DNA from: Rhodospirillaceae bacterium
GTDB taxonomy: Bacteria; Pseudomonadota; Alphaproteobacteria; Kiloniellales; DSM-21159
DNA length: 51,425 nucleotides
Reading direction: 5' to 3'
Assembly: GCA_029265995.1 (NCBI GenBank)
Contig: JAJUFM010000007.1
Coordinates: forward strand, 1-51,425
In this document: positions 29,022 to 35,160 of the stretch, in pieces
How positions within the stretch are numbered: position 1 is the first letter of the stretch
How the letters are laid out: the number at the start of each line of letters is the position of its first letter
Translations under genes and position numbers: made by a program
The notes under the pieces: generated by a model
Seen by the model: only the letters and a program-made list of their open reading frames with translations
Database searches by the model: none
Told to the model about the DNA's origin: nothing

Positions 29022-29477
29022 ATGGCGCAAGACCTGTGGTTTGAGGACTTTACGGTCGGTAGAAGATTCCGCACTCGGGGCGTGACTCTGAGCGAGGCTC
29101 AAATCCTGGATTTCGCCTGGCAATGGGATCCCCAGCCATTTCACATCGATCTGGAAGCATCGTCGCGCTGGGGATACGGCGGGCTGATTGCCAGCGGTTT
29201 TCACACGCTCTGCGCAGCTTTCCGCATGGTAGTCCAAGAGCGCATCTTTACGGCAGCCAGTCTCGGCTCGCCGGGGATGGACAAGATCCGGTGGCTGAGG
29301 CCGGTTCGGCCTGGAGATACCATCCAGACCGAACTGGAAGTCATCGATGCGCGCATCTCGCAGTCCAAGCCAGACAGGGGCATCGTGACCATGCTCTATC
29401 GCGTCTGGAACCAGCGCGGCGAAGAGGTGATGCGCTTGGAAGCCGTTCAGATTCTTCGGCGCCGCCCGGAGAACTGA
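29022..29477 (+). CDS. MaoC-family (R)-hydratase-like protein
   Basis: A 151-residue hot-dog-fold protein. The hydratase catalytic region is visible as DPQPFHID followed by GLIASGFHT, the MaoC Asp and His arrangement. MAQDLWFEDFTVGRRFRTRG is the usual N-terminus, and RPGDTIQTELEVI the second half of the fold. Such proteins hydrate enoyl-CoA thioesters; the substrate is unknown. It follows the Mth938-like gene by 44 nt and is convergent with siaD. Confidence 0.88.
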   Translation: MAQDLWFEDFTVGRRFRTRGVTLSEAQILDFAWQWDPQPFHIDLEASSRWGYGGLIASGFHTLCAAFRMVVQERIFTAASLGSPGMDKIRWLRPVRPGDTIQTELEVIDARISQSKPDRGIVTMLYRVWNQRGEEVMRLEAVQILRRRPEN

Positions 29478-29507: not shown

Positions 29508-30380
29508 CTAGGCGATCGAGGTTGTTCGAAAGCGCGCTTCTTTAAAGGGTTCACCATCCTGATAAACCCGGAAGCAGCCGCGCCCGCTCTGCTTAGCCAG
29601 GTAAAGGGCCCTATCCGCCCGGGCAAGCGCATCGTCAAGGGCCGGTTCCTCTTCAAAGACCTGAGTAATGCCGATAGAGATGCTGTAGCCAGTGTGGTTG
29701 GCTGGTCCCGTTACCACGAGGGCCTCTTCAACCGCATTTATCAGGCGCGCAGCGACATTCCTGGCTTCATCCAGAGGGGTGTTGTGCAATAGCACCGCAA
29801 ACTCTTCACCACCGAGCCGGCCGATCAAATCCTCGTCGCGGAGCAAGCTTTTGCAGAGCGTTCCGAAGTGCTCGAGCACGCGATCGCCTGCCGAATGGCC
29901 GAAGCGGTCGTTGATCTGCTTGAAGTGATCCATGTCTATCAGGAGCACGCTTAGAGGGATGCCATGCCTCTGCGCGTCTTCCAGCTGATTTCTCGCCAGG
30001 CAGAAGAAGTGTCTGCGCGAAGCGGTGCCGGTAAGAACATCTGTGGCGACCTGCCGGTGTAGTTCTGCGGTCAGCGCCTCGCGGCGCGTAACTTCCTCCT
30101 GCAGCGCTTCATTCAGTCGCTTCAACTCTGCAGCTTGGCGGACGAGGTTGTGATTGGCGACCTGTAACTCGAGCTGAGTCCGATCGCTGAGCCGTACAAG
30201 TCGGCGCTGTTCCCGCAGGCTCTTTCGGTAAACCTCGGAAAGAAACTTAAGCTTTTCCGCCGCCTCATGAAGCATCGTTGCCATTTGCTCCGACTCGGCG
30301 GCAATCCGCTCCTCGACATCGAACAGCCCAAAGTCCGCTATTGCAGGTAGCTCGGGAGCGTCGTCTGCTGTTTCGCTCAT
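29508..30380 (-). CDS. siaD: Diguanylate cyclase of the Sia pathway (SiaD-like)
   Basis: A 290-residue soluble GGDEF protein that makes cyclic di-GMP. The N-terminal 110 residues are a long charged coiled coil (heptads through LSEVYRKSLREQRRLVRL and LKRLNEALQEEVTRREAL). The catalytic domain has VLLIDMDHFKQINDRFGH and GGEEF at about 190-194. The inhibitory I-site RDED (about 181-184) is in the correct place, five residues before GGEEF. It is last in the operon, 2 nt after siaC. In Pseudomonas, unphosphorylated SiaC binds and activates SiaD; the arrangement here predicts the same. Confidence 0.9.
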   Translation of the reverse strand: MSETADDAPELPAIADFGLFDVEERIAAESEQMATMLHEAAEKLKFLSEVYRKSLREQRRLVRLSDRTQLELQVANHNLVRQAAELKRLNEALQEEVTRREALTAELHRQVATDVLTGTASRRHFFCLARNQLEDAQRHGIPLSVLLIDMDHFKQINDRFGHSAGDRVLEHFGTLCKSLLRDEDLIGRLGGEEFAVLLHNTPLDEARNVAARLINAVEEALVVTGPANHTGYSISIGITQVFEEEPALDDALARADRALYLAKQSGRGCFRVYQDGEPFKEARFRTTSIA

Positions 30381-30382
30381 TG

Positions 30383-30775
30383 CTATTCTCTAGGCACGAC
30401 CCGGAAATCCGCGTGCTTAAAGTCTTCCGCGAAATCCTGGCCGAATTCCTCCATGGTGTCGTCGTCCGGATGATAGTGCCAGTTGATAGCGATCTGGCGG
30501 CCCCTTGCGGCAGCGCTCTCGAGGATCTGAAAGATGTTCATGAGCGCCTTGGCGCTGCTCGAATTGAAGTAAACCAGTTCGAGATCAACCTGAAGAGGCG
30601 GACCTGCTTCATTGAGCTGCTCTTGAAGCGCGCAAAGAATAGGGCCGAAGAAGGCGGCAGCATCCTCTGGATAGGATTCGCCACTGATATGGAGCGTGCC
30701 CTTGCCCGCGTCGAAGAGGACGCGAGGCGACCTCTCACCGGCCGCTATTGCTAGGGGAGTCGGTTGACGGGTCAT
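30383..30775 (-). CDS. siaC: SiaC-like partner-switch protein (DUF1987)
   Basis: A 130-residue small soluble protein. LHISGESYPEDAAAFFGPIL, VYFNSSSAKALMNIFQIL and WHYHPDDDTMEEFGQDFAED are the DUF1987/SiaC signatures. The FNSSSAK segment probably holds the residue phosphorylated by SiaB and dephosphorylated by SiaA. The ATG at 30775 overlaps the siaB stop (ATGA) and has GAAGG about 7 nt upstream, so six residues of an upstream extension are dropped. Phosphorylation state should decide whether it binds SiaD. Confidence 0.92.
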   Translation of the reverse strand: MTRQPTPLAIAAGERSPRVLFDAGKGTLHISGESYPEDAAAFFGPILCALQEQLNEAGPPLQVDLELVYFNSSSAKALMNIFQILESAAARGRQIAINWHYHPDDDTMEEFGQDFAEDFKHADFRVVPRE

Positions 30776-31335
30776 ACGAAGACCTTCAGACAAAAGAAGA
30801 AGCGCTCTTCTTGGAGATCAAGGAAATCGAACTCGATCGGACGGCTGGAGCGCCGTGCTACTTCGATCAAGCCGAGAGAGGCGCCCAGGCTGCCTTCTTC
30901 CGGGGGCTCTTTTAGTTTCTTGCGGTACACAGCGCGCAGCGCGTCCTTGTCCATCGCGGCCAGGGCGGTCAAGCGCGCTTCCAATTGCTCCTTCTGCTGG
31001 AGCGTTATGGTATTTGCGCAGACGACGAAGAAGGCCTGCTCCTCCATTCCAACGACAATCAATCCCGAACCCAAGGGCGTCTCCTGTGGATTGCGGGGGG
31101 GCAGTTGCTCGGCGGAGTAGCGGATGACGTTTTGCACCTGCTCCACGAACACCGAGAAGAGCCGCTTGGTGTGGTTTTGATCGCTATCCTCGTGCTCTAC
31201 CCGACGGCGCAGGGTTTCGCCGAGGGAGAAGAGGATGCTTTCGGAAACGAACCCGCTATACGAAAGAATGGCGCCCTTTCCGTCCTGATCGCACTTGAAC
31301 CCGTAGTAGGCTTCGGCCAAGCGCTGGCTCATCAT
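30772..31335 (-). CDS. siaB: SiaB-family protein kinase (DUF6272)
   Basis: A 187-residue soluble kinase with an HATPase-like fold. FVEQVQNVIRYSAEQ corresponds to the N-box helix, LGSGLIVVGMEEQAFFVVCA to the central strands, and EEGSLGASLGLIEVARRS to the glycine-containing ATP lid. In Pseudomonas SiaB phosphorylates SiaC. The ATG at 31335 with CGGAG seven nt upstream is preferred over a TTG at 31353. It lies 47 nt after siaA and overlaps siaC by 4 nt. Confidence 0.9.
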   Translation of the reverse strand: MMSQRLAEAYYGFKCDQDGKGAILSYSGFVSESILFSLGETLRRRVEHEDSDQNHTKRLFSVFVEQVQNVIRYSAEQLPPRNPQETPLGSGLIVVGMEEQAFFVVCANTITLQQKEQLEARLTALAAMDKDALRAVYRKKLKEPPEEGSLGASLGLIEVARRSSRPIEFDFLDLQEERFFFCLKVFV

Positions 31336-31382
31336 TTCAAACTCCGGTCTCAACCCAAGCCACTAGTTTAGCTCCCTGCGCA

Positions 31383-32915
31383 TTAATATGCACGGAATGC
31401 GAGAAATGCATAATCGTCACGCTGAGCCTGCTCGCCACGCCAGTCAGCCAAGGCTGCCTCGAGCGCTTGCGCTTGATCTTTCAGCGGCCGGTGCCTCTGT
31501 TCCTGGAGGAAAGCCCTTAACCTCTGCCGGCCGAACAAGCGGGGACGAACCCCTGGGCCACCTACCTGTTCTGGTACGCCGTCCGTGAAGAGATAGAAGC
31601 ACATTCCCTCCAGAACAGGGATTGTATGATCCCGGATCGCGGCAGGCGGTAGGAGTGATTGATAACCCAGGCTGCCTCGGGTCGCTCGAATCATCTCCAC
31701 CTGCCCGCCGTGTTGAACCAGGAGGGGGATATTGGCGCCTGCGTAGTGCAACTGCCGATGATCAGGGTCATAGATACAGCAGGCGGCGTCGAGACCATCA
31801 TCGGCGCCGGCATTCGCGCCTTTGGACAGGTGCTGACGAACGAGACGATCCACGGCATGAAGAAGTGCCGAGGGCCGCATTTCCTCAGTCTGCCGCACTG
31901 CTTCATCAAGCGCGGCCGCGGCAATGAGCGTCATGAAAGCTCCGGGCACCCCGTGGCCGGTGCAGTCCGCCATGAAGAGGATGTAACGCCCGTCCTGCTC
32001 CAGCAGCCAGCAGTGATCTCCTCCAACGGCCTGAAGCGGACGCCAAAGGAGCGCCGCCTCTGCGAAATGACGCTCCATGTCCTCAGCACTTGGCATAAGC
32101 GCCATCTGAATCCGGCTTGCGTAAGCCAGGTTCTCCGTCAGTTGCTGATGCGCCGCTTCTATCTCCTGATTTTTCTCCACCAGCGCCTTTTGCGTCTGCT
32201 CCAATGCGGCGAGAAGGCGCTTGGCTTCATCGCCGCTTCGCAGGCCTTCCACCATCTTGTCGAAGGCCCGTCCAGCGCGACCCAGTTCGTCGCTCCGTTC
32301 CCAACCTAGATGCAGCCAATTCTTGCGTTCGACGCCTGCCATCGCCTGCAGCATCTGCTCCAGGGGTCGGATAACAAGATCGCGAACGGCGTAGTGAACC
32401 GAGAGGGTGAAGCCGGCGAGCAGGATGACGAACGCCAATCCAGTCAGCAAAATCTCCCTATTGAAGGCGCGACGCAGCTCTTCCCTGCTCATCGTCAGCT
32501 CCAAAGAGCCTATCACCTCACCTTGTGGGCTGATTATGTCGCGACTTATTGTCAGGGCGCGCTGCTGAGGGGGAGCGCCGATCGCCAAGACCTCTCTTCC
32601 CGATGCATCCAGTATGCGGCCGAGAAGGAATGCGGGATCCTGCTCTAGCGCCTTCACCTGAGCGGCGTAAATCGACCGGTCTAGCATCCACAGCGGACGG
32701 GCAAGAGCCTCTGCGGTCAATTCGGCGATCATCTCCGTCCGCGTTTCGAGCTGCCTCACTTGGTCCTGGTAATCTCTCCAGCGCAGACCGCCCTGGGTCA
32801 GAAGAACGATCAAAAAGATTACTGGGACTGTGCGCAGCAAAATTCGCGCGGCAAGCCGCGGCCGCCATCTGTGACGGCCGACAGGTTTGCTTGCTGTTGG
32901 CTCTGAGGCTGTCAC
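31383..32915 (-). CDS. siaA: SiaA-like membrane PP2C (SpoIIE) phosphatase with HAMP
   Basis: A 510-residue sensor phosphatase. TM1 (about 20-40, ILLRTVPVIFLIVLLTQGGL), a periplasmic domain of about 110 residues, TM2 (about 157-180, GLAFVILLAGFTLSVHYAV), a HAMP region, a coiled coil (QTQKALVEKNQEIEAAHQQL) and a C-terminal PP2C domain follow in order. Phosphatase motifs are AVGGDHCWLL, FMADCTGHGVPGAFM, and the final DDYAFLAF, supplying metal-binding Asp residues. It should dephosphorylate SiaC in response to an outside signal. The GTG at 32915 overlaps the stop of the binding-protein gene (GTGA); ATG at 32939 is an alternative. Confidence 0.9.
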   Translation of the reverse strand: MTASEPTASKPVGRHRWRPRLAARILLRTVPVIFLIVLLTQGGLRWRDYQDQVRQLETRTEMIAELTAEALARPLWMLDRSIYAAQVKALEQDPAFLLGRILDASGREVLAIGAPPQQRALTISRDIISPQGEVIGSLELTMSREELRRAFNREILLTGLAFVILLAGFTLSVHYAVRDLVIRPLEQMLQAMAGVERKNWLHLGWERSDELGRAGRAFDKMVEGLRSGDEAKRLLAALEQTQKALVEKNQEIEAAHQQLTENLAYASRIQMALMPSAEDMERHFAEAALLWRPLQAVGGDHCWLLEQDGRYILFMADCTGHGVPGAFMTLIAAAALDEAVRQTEEMRPSALLHAVDRLVRQHLSKGANAGADDGLDAACCIYDPDHRQLHYAGANIPLLVQHGGQVEMIRATRGSLGYQSLLPPAAIRDHTIPVLEGMCFYLFTDGVPEQVGGPGVRPRLFGRQRLRAFLQEQRHRPLKDQAQALEAALADWRGEQAQRDDYAFLAFRAY

Positions 32916-33733
32916 TGCCAAGCTGCAATCCGGAGACACTGTTGTTCCAGCAGCTCAGGCGTCAGGTTGTGCTCAATGAGCGCTTCAACCTGTTTTATCT
33001 CGATGGGGGTCTCGGGGCGGAGAAGGGCGCGATACCGGTAGATTTGGTCCGGTGTTTCGGCAATCAGCAGCTTGTCTCGTTCTTGAGGTTCACTGGCAAG
33101 AAAGCAATCCAGATAGGATCGAGTGATAATCGCGAGGTCGACGCGCTCCTGCAATACCAAGTGGATGCCGGCCAGGTTGCCATTTACCAGGACAATATCA
33201 AAGTTCTGCGCCAACCGTTCTGGGTTGGTCTCAAAATCTGCGAAGGCGTAGTGATAGCCTAGCATTGCCGCGATCGACTTGTTGCTGAAGGGGTCGAAAT
33301 AGGTTTGATCCCGATCTTCCTGGGCAAGTGCAATGAAGACGTCTGAATCTGTAAGAAAAACCTCGCTAGAGACGATCGGCAGTTCTCGAGCAGTCCATCC
33401 CCAGCCGGGACTCTCGAACAAGATCAGGTCATAGTTTCCCTTGATGAAGTCGCTGAACCGTCGGGCGGGAGAGGTCAGGAAGAACTCGAAGCGCAAGTCA
33501 TCCTGCTGTTCGTTCCAGGCGGCAATGAGGTCCAGTGTAAGGCCGCTGACCTGCCCATCCGGTGCCATCTCCACATAAGGAGGAAAGACGTATCCCCCCA
33601 CGGTCACTGTTTGCTGCGCTGCCAGGTTTGCGGAAAAGGGCAGGGGGGCTGCCAAGATCAGGAGCAGAAAGGCTGCCCCGCCGAGCCACTTGCGCACGAT
33701 ACCCCATCCATCCCCTAGAAGCTTCCGCCACAT
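32912..33733 (-). CDS. Periplasmic solute-binding protein (SBP_bac_3-like) fused to the sia operon
   Basis: A 273-residue secreted protein. After a signal peptide (WLGGAAFLLLILAAPLPFSA) comes VTVGGYVFPPYVEMAPDGQV and then SGLTLDLIAAWNEQQDDLRF, the start of amino-acid-type binding proteins. NYDLILFESPGWGWTARELP and VDLAIITRSYLDCFL complete the two lobes. Its stop overlaps the siaA start by 4 nt and no ABC permease is nearby, so a sensory rather than transport role is likely. The ATG at 33733 is assigned; a GTG at 33697 after GGATGGGG would give a more compact signal peptide. Confidence 0.82.
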   Translation of the reverse strand: MWRKLLGDGWGIVRKWLGGAAFLLLILAAPLPFSANLAAQQTVTVGGYVFPPYVEMAPDGQVSGLTLDLIAAWNEQQDDLRFEFFLTSPARRFSDFIKGNYDLILFESPGWGWTARELPIVSSEVFLTDSDVFIALAQEDRDQTYFDPFSNKSIAAMLGYHYAFADFETNPERLAQNFDIVLVNGNLAGIHLVLQERVDLAIITRSYLDCFLASEPQERDKLLIAETPDQIYRYRALLRPETPIEIKQVEALIEHNLTPELLEQQCLRIAAWQ

Positions 33734-33954: not shown

Positions 33955-35160
33955 ATGTCACGCAGCGCCTCGCACCCCCTAACCGTCCCGAAAATGCCGG
34001 GCCTACGTCCCAGCAACCCGAACTTTTCCTCCGGTCCCTGCGCCAAGCGTCCGGGCTGGTCGCTGGATGCGTTAAAGAACGCCTATCTTGGTCGCTCGCA
34101 CCGTGCGAAAGGCGGCAAGGCCAAGTTGGCGGAGGTCATCCAGCGCTCGCGTGATCTGCTCGGTTTGCCGGATGACTGGCGGCTTGGCATCGTGCCCGCT
34201 TCCGATACCGGCGCAGTAGAAATGATTCTCTGGTCGGTACTCGGTTCGCGCGGTGTCGATGTCCTGGCGTGGGAGTCCTTTGGCCAGGGCTGGGCCACGG
34301 ACATTGTAAAGCAGCTCAAGCTTGAGGATGTCCGAGTGCTAACGGCGGATTATGGAGCTTTGCCTCGGCTTGAAGAGGTCGATCCGGCCCGCGATCTGGT
34401 CTTTACCTGGAATGGCACGACATCCGGAGTGAGGGTCCCCGATGCCGAGTGGATCTCCGGCGATCGAGAGGGGCTCGCAATCTGCGACGCGACTTCTGCG
34501 GCCTTTGCGATGGCTTTGGATTATAGCAAGCTGGATGTAGTGACCTGGTCTTGGCAGAAGGTGCTGGGCGGGGAGGCTGCGCATGGAATGCTGGCGCTAT
34601 CTCCGCGGGCTGTCGAGCGCCTCGAATGCCATCGTCCTCCCTGGCCCTTGCCGAAGATCTTTCGCCTGACCAAGAACGGAAAGCTCATCGAAGGCATATT
34701 CCGGGGCGAAACGATCAACACCCCCTCCATGCTGGCTGTGGAAGATGCTTTGGACGGGCTGCGGTGGGCTGAAGAGATTGGAGGGCTCGCTGCTCTCGTG
34801 CGGCGCACGGAGCAGAACTTTGCGGTCGTTGCCCAGTGGGTCGAAAAAACGTCCTGGATCGGCTTTTTGGCGCAGGAGCCGGATACCCGCTCTCCGACCT
34901 CCATTTGCCTGCAGTTCGAAGACCCCTGGTTTCAGGCGCTGCCGGTTGAAGAGCAGGCGGCAGTGGCGAAAGCTGTTGCGGCCAAGTTAGATGCAGAAGG
35001 GGTCGCCTACGATATCGGTGCTTACCGCGACGCACCGCCAGGCCTGCGTATATGGGGCGGCGCAACGATAGAGACGGCCGATATCGAGGCGTTGCTCCCC
35101 TGGATCGAATGGGCGTGGTTCAGCGTGCGCGGGGAAAAAGGCGCATCAGTCCCGGAATGA
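33955..35160 (+). CDS. serC: Phosphoserine aminotransferase
   Basis: A 401-residue PLP enzyme converting 3-phosphohydroxypyruvate to phosphoserine. The N-terminal [20 protein letters not shown] is the alphaproteobacterial SerC signature. [34 protein letters not shown] and the PLP lysine in [15 protein letters not shown] follow. AGGAG lies 12 nt before the ATG, longer than usual; the ATG at 33994 is an alternative. serA follows 60 nt later, making a serine-synthesis operon. Confidence 0.95.

Follow-up and report, generated by a model that had tools for sequence, protein, structure and literature searches.

A solute-binding protein gene heads a SiaABCD-type operon in a Rhodospirillaceae bacterium and probably serves a ligand-to-cyclic-di-GMP switch

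A 51,425-nucleotide contig of a Rhodospirillaceae bacterium (JAJUFM010000007.1, assembly GCA_029265995.1; the whole stretch is referred to here as the window) carries a gene for a periplasmic solute-binding protein (SBP) directly ahead of siaA, siaB, siaC and siaD, whose counterparts in Pseudomonas aeruginosa control synthesis of the biofilm messenger cyclic di-GMP (c-di-GMP). The genes run from position 33733 to 29508 in the order SBP, siaA, siaB, siaC, siaD, all on the minus strand, and the five-gene operon is real and has its key motifs complete. A first-pass annotation of the window had listed this order, and the open reading frame (ORF) coordinates and the Pfam and NCBIfam matches confirm it. 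A chance gene order was ruled out, as the search of relatives found these five genes, likewise ordered, in Aquibaculum and in three Tistrella-type genomes of one genus (L016-L018), at about 40-70% identity. We propose that the SBP probably signals through the SiaA periplasmic domain to SiaC and SiaD, which would make the operon a ligand-to-c-di-GMP switch; we infer ligand binding, contact between the SBP and SiaA and the sign of the response.

A functional tie between the SBP and SiaA is well supported by comparison of sequences, given the conserved linkage and overlap of the two genes, the retention of the SBP where siaA parts from siaBC, and natural fusions. The SBP gene (33733-32912, minus strand; 273 amino acids as called) and siaA (32915-31383, minus strand; 510 amino acids from a GTG start, with an alternative GTG at 32939) share the 4 nt GTGA at 32912..32915, where the SBP stop codon meets the siaA start codon, just as the first pass had read it. 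Scanning contigs for the SBP family gave 0 matches with a single-sequence query and 74 loci, from 97 candidate stretches, with an alignment query. In 23 of the 74, siaA lies directly downstream of the SBP gene (Aquibaculum, Tistrella and 21 loci from Azospirillum or Roseomonas). Counting 26 distinct linked loci (29 rows, three of which are second copies of a locus), an NTGA overlap of 4 nt joins the two genes in 22, that is in the window and all 21 Azospirillum/Roseomonas loci, and the three Tistrella-type loci have their nearest ATG 34-37 nt downstream of the SBP gene. Those 21 loci place SBP-siaA convergent to siaB, siaC and a third gene of which only the first part is SiaD-like; in L020, the only one whose third gene was checked singly by Pfam, a histidine-kinase ATPase takes the place of the GGDEF domain after the SiaD-like N-terminus. 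The SBP thus stayed with siaA when siaA left siaBC. On a tree of 96 rows, 24 of them labelled as next to siaA, the label needs three changes.

Beyond this SBP family, we scanned 66 genes flanking SiaA-type phosphatases that lack it for SBPs of other kinds, and found SBP_bac_8 (L135, L139, L152, L174), Phosphonate-bd (L134), ABC_sub_bind (L189) and SBP_bac_3 (L154, L175) proteins beside SiaA-type genes. SBP-like ORFs adjoin a Sia gene in 12 of the 76 loci gathered in a survey of the phylum, and five further loci of the 76 encode, next to siaB-siaC, a SiaA-type SpoIIE phosphatase with an SBP domain fused to it in one protein. Two of the fusions have three SBP_bac_3 stretches each (L138, L141) and two have two each (L179, L186); the fifth (L150) joins a Phosphonate-bd domain to SpoIIE in the arrangement siaB-siaC-siaD(GGDEF)-[SBP-PP2C]. 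The five are spread over four families of bacteria. SBP-like ORFs were also more frequent at distance one from Sia genes (13/107) than further away (4/244; Fisher p = 8e-5), an enrichment to be read with the knowledge that the rows are related, that six of the adjacent cases (L134, L135, L139, L152, L174, L189) come from one bacterial family, and that the SBP detector was seeded partly with SBPs found adjoining siaA; for these reasons we take the fusions as the stronger evidence. A Pfam control on 130 of the 279 other ORFs of the same loci gave five SBP_bac_3 and two Phosphonate-bd matches among the families listed, and a sequence search flagged seven control ORFs as SBP-like. Five of the seven directly adjoin a Sia gene (L133, L168, L182 and two in L157) and the other two, one in L157 and an SBP_bac_8-like ORF in L024, are two genes off, so the control is not clean. 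In L139, L152 and L174 a single strand carries siaC, siaB, an ORF of 248-276 amino acids, the SBP_bac_8 gene and the SiaA-type phosphatase gene.

It is possible, though unlikely, that the SBP is the scavenging part of an ABC (ATP-binding cassette) importer encoded elsewhere, sharing the operon through co-regulation of uptake and biofilm with no contact to SiaA. The ordinary amino-acid-type SBP fold would suit such a role, as would the general knowledge that many genomes have unlinked permeases. However, the SBP accompanies siaA where siaBC do not, SiaA-type phosphatases with fused SBP domains exist, and no permease appeared among the families listed for the neighbours of the SBP family. Those neighbours number 141 genes (two loci without a called SBP gave none), of which the 118 that are not the 23 SiaAs were scanned; the 25 commonest of their 68 families include no ABC permease, leaving at most one such gene possible. 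The claim in the first-pass annotation that the SBP has no ABC permease beside it therefore holds across the commonest of these families.

The product of siaA (31383..32915, minus strand) is, from Pfam, NCBIfam and a structure model, a membrane PP2C phosphatase with a transmembrane helix, a short periplasmic domain, a second transmembrane helix, a linker and a SpoIIE domain. The stretch 32448..32798 on the minus strand runs from the end of the first helix through the periplasmic domain (a loop of about 110 amino acids that weakly matches CHASE5) into the start of the second helix, and the SpoIIE/PP2C catalytic domain occupies 31392..31994 on the same strand (residues 308-508; Pfam SpoIIE, 3.3e-29). 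In the model (pLDDT 75.4, weak from about residue 178 to 247), the phosphatase part, to which the VIA-align structural alignment is confined, matches P. aeruginosa SiaA-PP2C best (6k4e; Z 33.4, root-mean-square deviation 1.8, 245 residues aligned), and in 22 homologues the PP2C motifs (GGD, ADCTGHG, TDG and the RDD region) keep their acidic residues without exception. The loop is 105-128 amino acids long in the SBP-linked SiaAs (25 of the 29 linked rows, those with two transmembrane helices called) versus 280-290 in the Pseudomonas-type SiaAs (L142, L148, L149, L160, L162, L166, L194), a label we give to rows with the classic gene order and a loop of that length. Both Pseudomonas-type SiaAs scanned have a dCache match below the cut-off, and the remaining unlinked SiaA rows differ greatly, some lacking a membrane helix altogether and others having very long loops. 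A short loop would suit a sensor that leaves recognition of the ligand to the SBP. A profile search of the PDB with the periplasmic domain returned mostly artificial alpha-Rep repeats over 20-40 residues, which we read as chance.

The SBP itself (32912..33733, minus strand) is a periplasmic type II, SBP_bac_3-like protein with a Sec-type hydrophobic N-terminus and no Cys in that stretch. It scores 19.8 bits against SBP_bac_3 (PF00497), under the curated Pfam cut-off of 26.4; of the 51 family members, 43 reach E<=0.01 with PF00497. The predicted structure (pLDDT 91.0, pTM 0.80) has a full two-lobed fold, and in Foldseek the model matches amino-acid-class type II binding proteins (probability 1.00, E 1.2e-14); the nearest sequence relatives in a profile search are AncCDT-1 and amino-acid SBPs. 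The Asp that we take to hold the amino group in amino-acid SBPs aligns by profile to R205, a column that is Arg in 8 of 9 siaA-linked family members and in 29 of the 42 others, and the column near W113 where we assume amino-acid SBPs place their carboxylate-binding Arg is not conserved in the family. The family has invariant residues of its own (P52, R92, F106, E107, W111, W113, F146, G159, Y162 and F164), and because of these and of the R205 position a free amino acid does not look like the obvious ligand. The loss of the canonical ligand residues would agree with a ligand-free periplasmic repressor or scaffold of SiaA, much as YfiR acts on YfiN. YfiR is a small periplasmic partner of a HAMP-bearing membrane signalling protein, although YfiR is not an SBP and YfiN is a cyclase. 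The membrane-proximal region of SiaA is weakly similar to YfiN/DgcN (E 0.0015) and to a YfiR-associated kinase model (E 3.6e-5). However, the two-lobed fold keeps invariant aromatic and charged motifs (FPPY, FE, WGW, GYHYxF), as a binding cleft would need, and we consider a ligand-free role improbable.

Several observations weigh against a ligand signal that passes from this SBP through SiaA. In two loci with the order siaB-C-D-A (L023 and L170, genomes G337 and G475) the SiaA loop is also 111 amino acids, and a genome-wide search found the SBP family in none of G337, G475 and G490, three genomes of one genus that each have a SiaC gene. The SiaAs of L139 and L154, which adjoin SBPs of other families, carry a weak Cache match of their own. 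The SBP gene of Aquibaculum arenosum (L015:2506-3349) is open in two frames, the second ending in an ATGA overlap with siaA, which reflects either a frameshift or a sequencing error; if real, the frameshift would mean loss of function. In 51 of the 74 SBP-family loci, mostly from Pseudomonas and Marinobacter and some on short contigs, the same scan shows no siaA, so the SBP family has other uses too. The mirror-tree correlation between the SBP and the SiaA sensor (0.88-0.89) was no better than for other Sia pairs and counts as no evidence for the pairing. That SiaA senses alone, through membrane state or its own domain, with the SBP a dispensable passenger, might draw on the G337/G475 lineage, the Aquibaculum frame and the response of P. 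aeruginosa SiaA to membrane perturbation reported in the available text of PMC12834913, but it is very improbable against an overlap and pairing that 21 further loci retain with proteins about 40% identical.

Within the genus, family and order, 58 genomes were searched and two have SiaC, namely the window genome and the only other member of its genus in the set. In the class SiaC scored above the cut-off in 11 of 289 genomes, and in the phylum it was found in 67 of 398 genomes at 83 places, of which 76 were new loci, four were already in the set and three partial ones were left out. The window SBP family occurs in none of the 76 phylum-survey Sia loci, and a strict rule of an SBP in every siaABCD locus was ruled out, as most SiaC loci of the phylum survey lack this family. 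Related genomes that keep siaABCD without the SBP had been named as a sign against the pairing, and this is partly what we see, with many siaABC(D) loci, Pseudomonas-type ones included, lacking the SBP family.

On the SBP-to-SiaA route, the SBP would capture a small ligand in the periplasm, and either its bound or its empty form would dock on the short SiaA periplasmic domain and so alter the activity of the cytoplasmic phosphatase. By analogy with P. aeruginosa, SiaA would then strip the phosphate that SiaB puts on SiaC, and unphosphorylated SiaC would bind the SiaD stalk and turn c-di-GMP synthesis on. In P. aeruginosa, SiaB kinase activity was seen in the presence of SiaC (PMC7647112, available text), and in the accessible parts of PMC8457831 and PMC12834913 SiaC activates SiaD and phosphorylation of T68 abolishes binding; both carbon availability and membrane perturbation are reported as signals in the text available. 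The idea that the SBP feeds SiaA, raised in the first-pass annotation, has strong comparative backing (linkage, overlap, fusions) for the functional tie, and signalling by a ligand through the SiaA periplasmic domain is the probable route that we infer.

The components downstream of SiaA are recognizable by domain and motif. SiaB (31353-30772, minus strand) is a SiaB family kinase by Pfam (DUF6272, 9.6e-40) and NCBIfam (SiaB_fam_kinase NF038262, 187.7 bits against a cut-off of 85). SiaC, a regulatory phosphoprotein (30793 or 30775 to 30383, minus strand; Pfam SiaC PF09345, 7.6e-42, 142.2 bits against a cut-off of 24.5), has the acceptor motif NSSS with a Ser aligned by motif at the position of P. 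aeruginosa T68, and among 102 SiaC ORFs this residue is Ser 93 times and Thr 9 times. SiaD (30380-29508, minus strand; Pfam GGDEF, 8.7e-42, with NCBIfam and motif support) is a cytoplasmic diguanylate cyclase that carries a SiaC-binding stalk at its N-terminus. The stalk module (30066..30380, minus strand), delimited by homologue alignment, holds an S65-D66-R67 motif in which D66 is kept in 87 of 87 and S65 in 84 of 87 homologous ORFs, and S65/D66 align by motif with the SiaC contacts S82/D83 reported in the available text of PMC8457831. The GGEEF catalytic motif (29799-29813) and the RDED inhibitory (RxxD) site (29829-29840), both read from the minus strand, are found as first described, and the SiaD alignment sequence covering this region is RDEDLIGRLGGEEF. 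Against the NCBIfam Pseudomonas equivalogs all four proteins give good matches that nonetheless fall below cut-off (SiaA 249 of 700 bits, SiaB 104.7 of 225, SiaC 104.3 of 150, SiaD 167.6 of 290), which places them in the same Sia system yet outside the Pseudomonas orthologue group. Among 49 proteins with a SiaD-type stalk that were scanned (of 87 ORFs), the outputs were GGDEF in 19, HD_5 in 11, Guanylate_cyc in 9 and HATPase_c in 9, and loci with the stalk joined to varied outputs include L022, L129, L144, L154, L163 and L020. From these sequences, SiaBC appears to be an output controller of general use.

Compared with P. aeruginosa SiaABCD, the window has the same four proteins in the same order (PP2C phosphatase, kinase, phosphoprotein, stalked diguanylate cyclase) and a shared PP2C fold, but its operon is headed by an SBP gene, its SiaA loop is about 110 rather than 280-290 amino acids with a weak dCache match, and a Ser replaces T68. 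Control of c-di-GMP by an SBP has precedents. In NspS-MbaA of Vibrio cholerae and Sinorhizobium meliloti, as far as the accessible text goes, c-di-GMP is regulated by a binding protein of the periplasm that works via a membrane partner, and the window type likewise couples an SBP gene to a membrane receptor gene with no adjacent permease seen; the partner there is a c-di-GMP enzyme, whereas in the window a Ser/Thr phosphatase would take that place and work via SiaC. In Salmonella the SBP ArtI is needed for the arginine response of the dCache c-di-GMP protein STM1987 (PMC8846402, available text), but ArtI is the transport SBP of another system and its partner is a direct c-di-GMP enzyme. SBPs also drive transmembrane receptors among the chemoreceptors, sensor kinases, c-di-GMP enzymes and Ser/Thr kinases named as SBP-stimulated in the accessible text of PMC9602780, where a PP2C phosphatase is not among them. 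In the literature searched, from which most subscription papers were outside scope, we found no paper in which an SBP regulates a PP2C phosphatase or SiaA, and searches for SiaC in Azospirillum, SpoIIE with SBP_bac_3 and SiaABCD with SBP returned no report of the pairing.

Members of the SBP family also occur beside other genes. In Magnetospirillum aberrantis (L055:7013-10376) one is followed by a STAS protein and then a methyl-accepting chemotaxis protein, in Pseudoduganella ginsengisoli (L121:6938-9247) one precedes a membrane GGDEF protein, and in Pseudomonas (L057-L120) there are tandem pairs that have no permease beside them and often follow a TetR gene. Within the window operon, the 4-nt overlaps and tiny gaps of the earlier reading hold for siaB/siaC (ATGA, 4 nt, if the ATG at 30775 starts siaC) and siaC/siaD (2 nt), and "tiny" is slightly generous for the siaA-siaB spacing of at least 29 nt. 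On the plus strand the operon is flanked by what we take to be a MaoC-like gene (29022-29477) and a SerC-like gene (starting at 33955 or 34126), so that opposite-strand neighbours bound it on either side. Promoter and terminator scans gave scores close to the shuffle background.

The window genome (96.8% complete) has two GGDEF matches, compared with four to nine in eleven relatives, and one match each for EAL, HD_5 and PilZ. The sole PilZ match lies in a BcsA-like cellulose synthase, which makes cellulose synthesis the likely end target of the switch. The cellulose cluster (BcsA-like with PilZ, BcsB and GH8; L224:1-9559) is divergent from the gene of the second GGDEF protein, which has PHY and GAF domains. 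The simplest reading is that a light-linked and an SBP-linked cyclase act on the cellulose synthase, other c-di-GMP receptors being possible. With so few c-di-GMP proteins in the genome, a path from ligand to cellulose should be traceable almost without redundancy.

More broadly, on balance we lean towards SiaA-type PP2C phosphatases being a further class of SBP-driven receptors, in which the SBP is free or fused and several SBP families were recruited separately, and in which SiaB-SiaC relays the signal to exchangeable stalk-bearing outputs (diguanylate cyclase, HD-GYP, class III nucleotide cyclase or histidine kinase). The SiaABCD signal has been hard to define; with a separate soluble SBP, simple binding screens could find the ligand. 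If true, a PP2C phosphatase under the control of an SBP would extend the range of receptor types named in the available text of PMC9602780.

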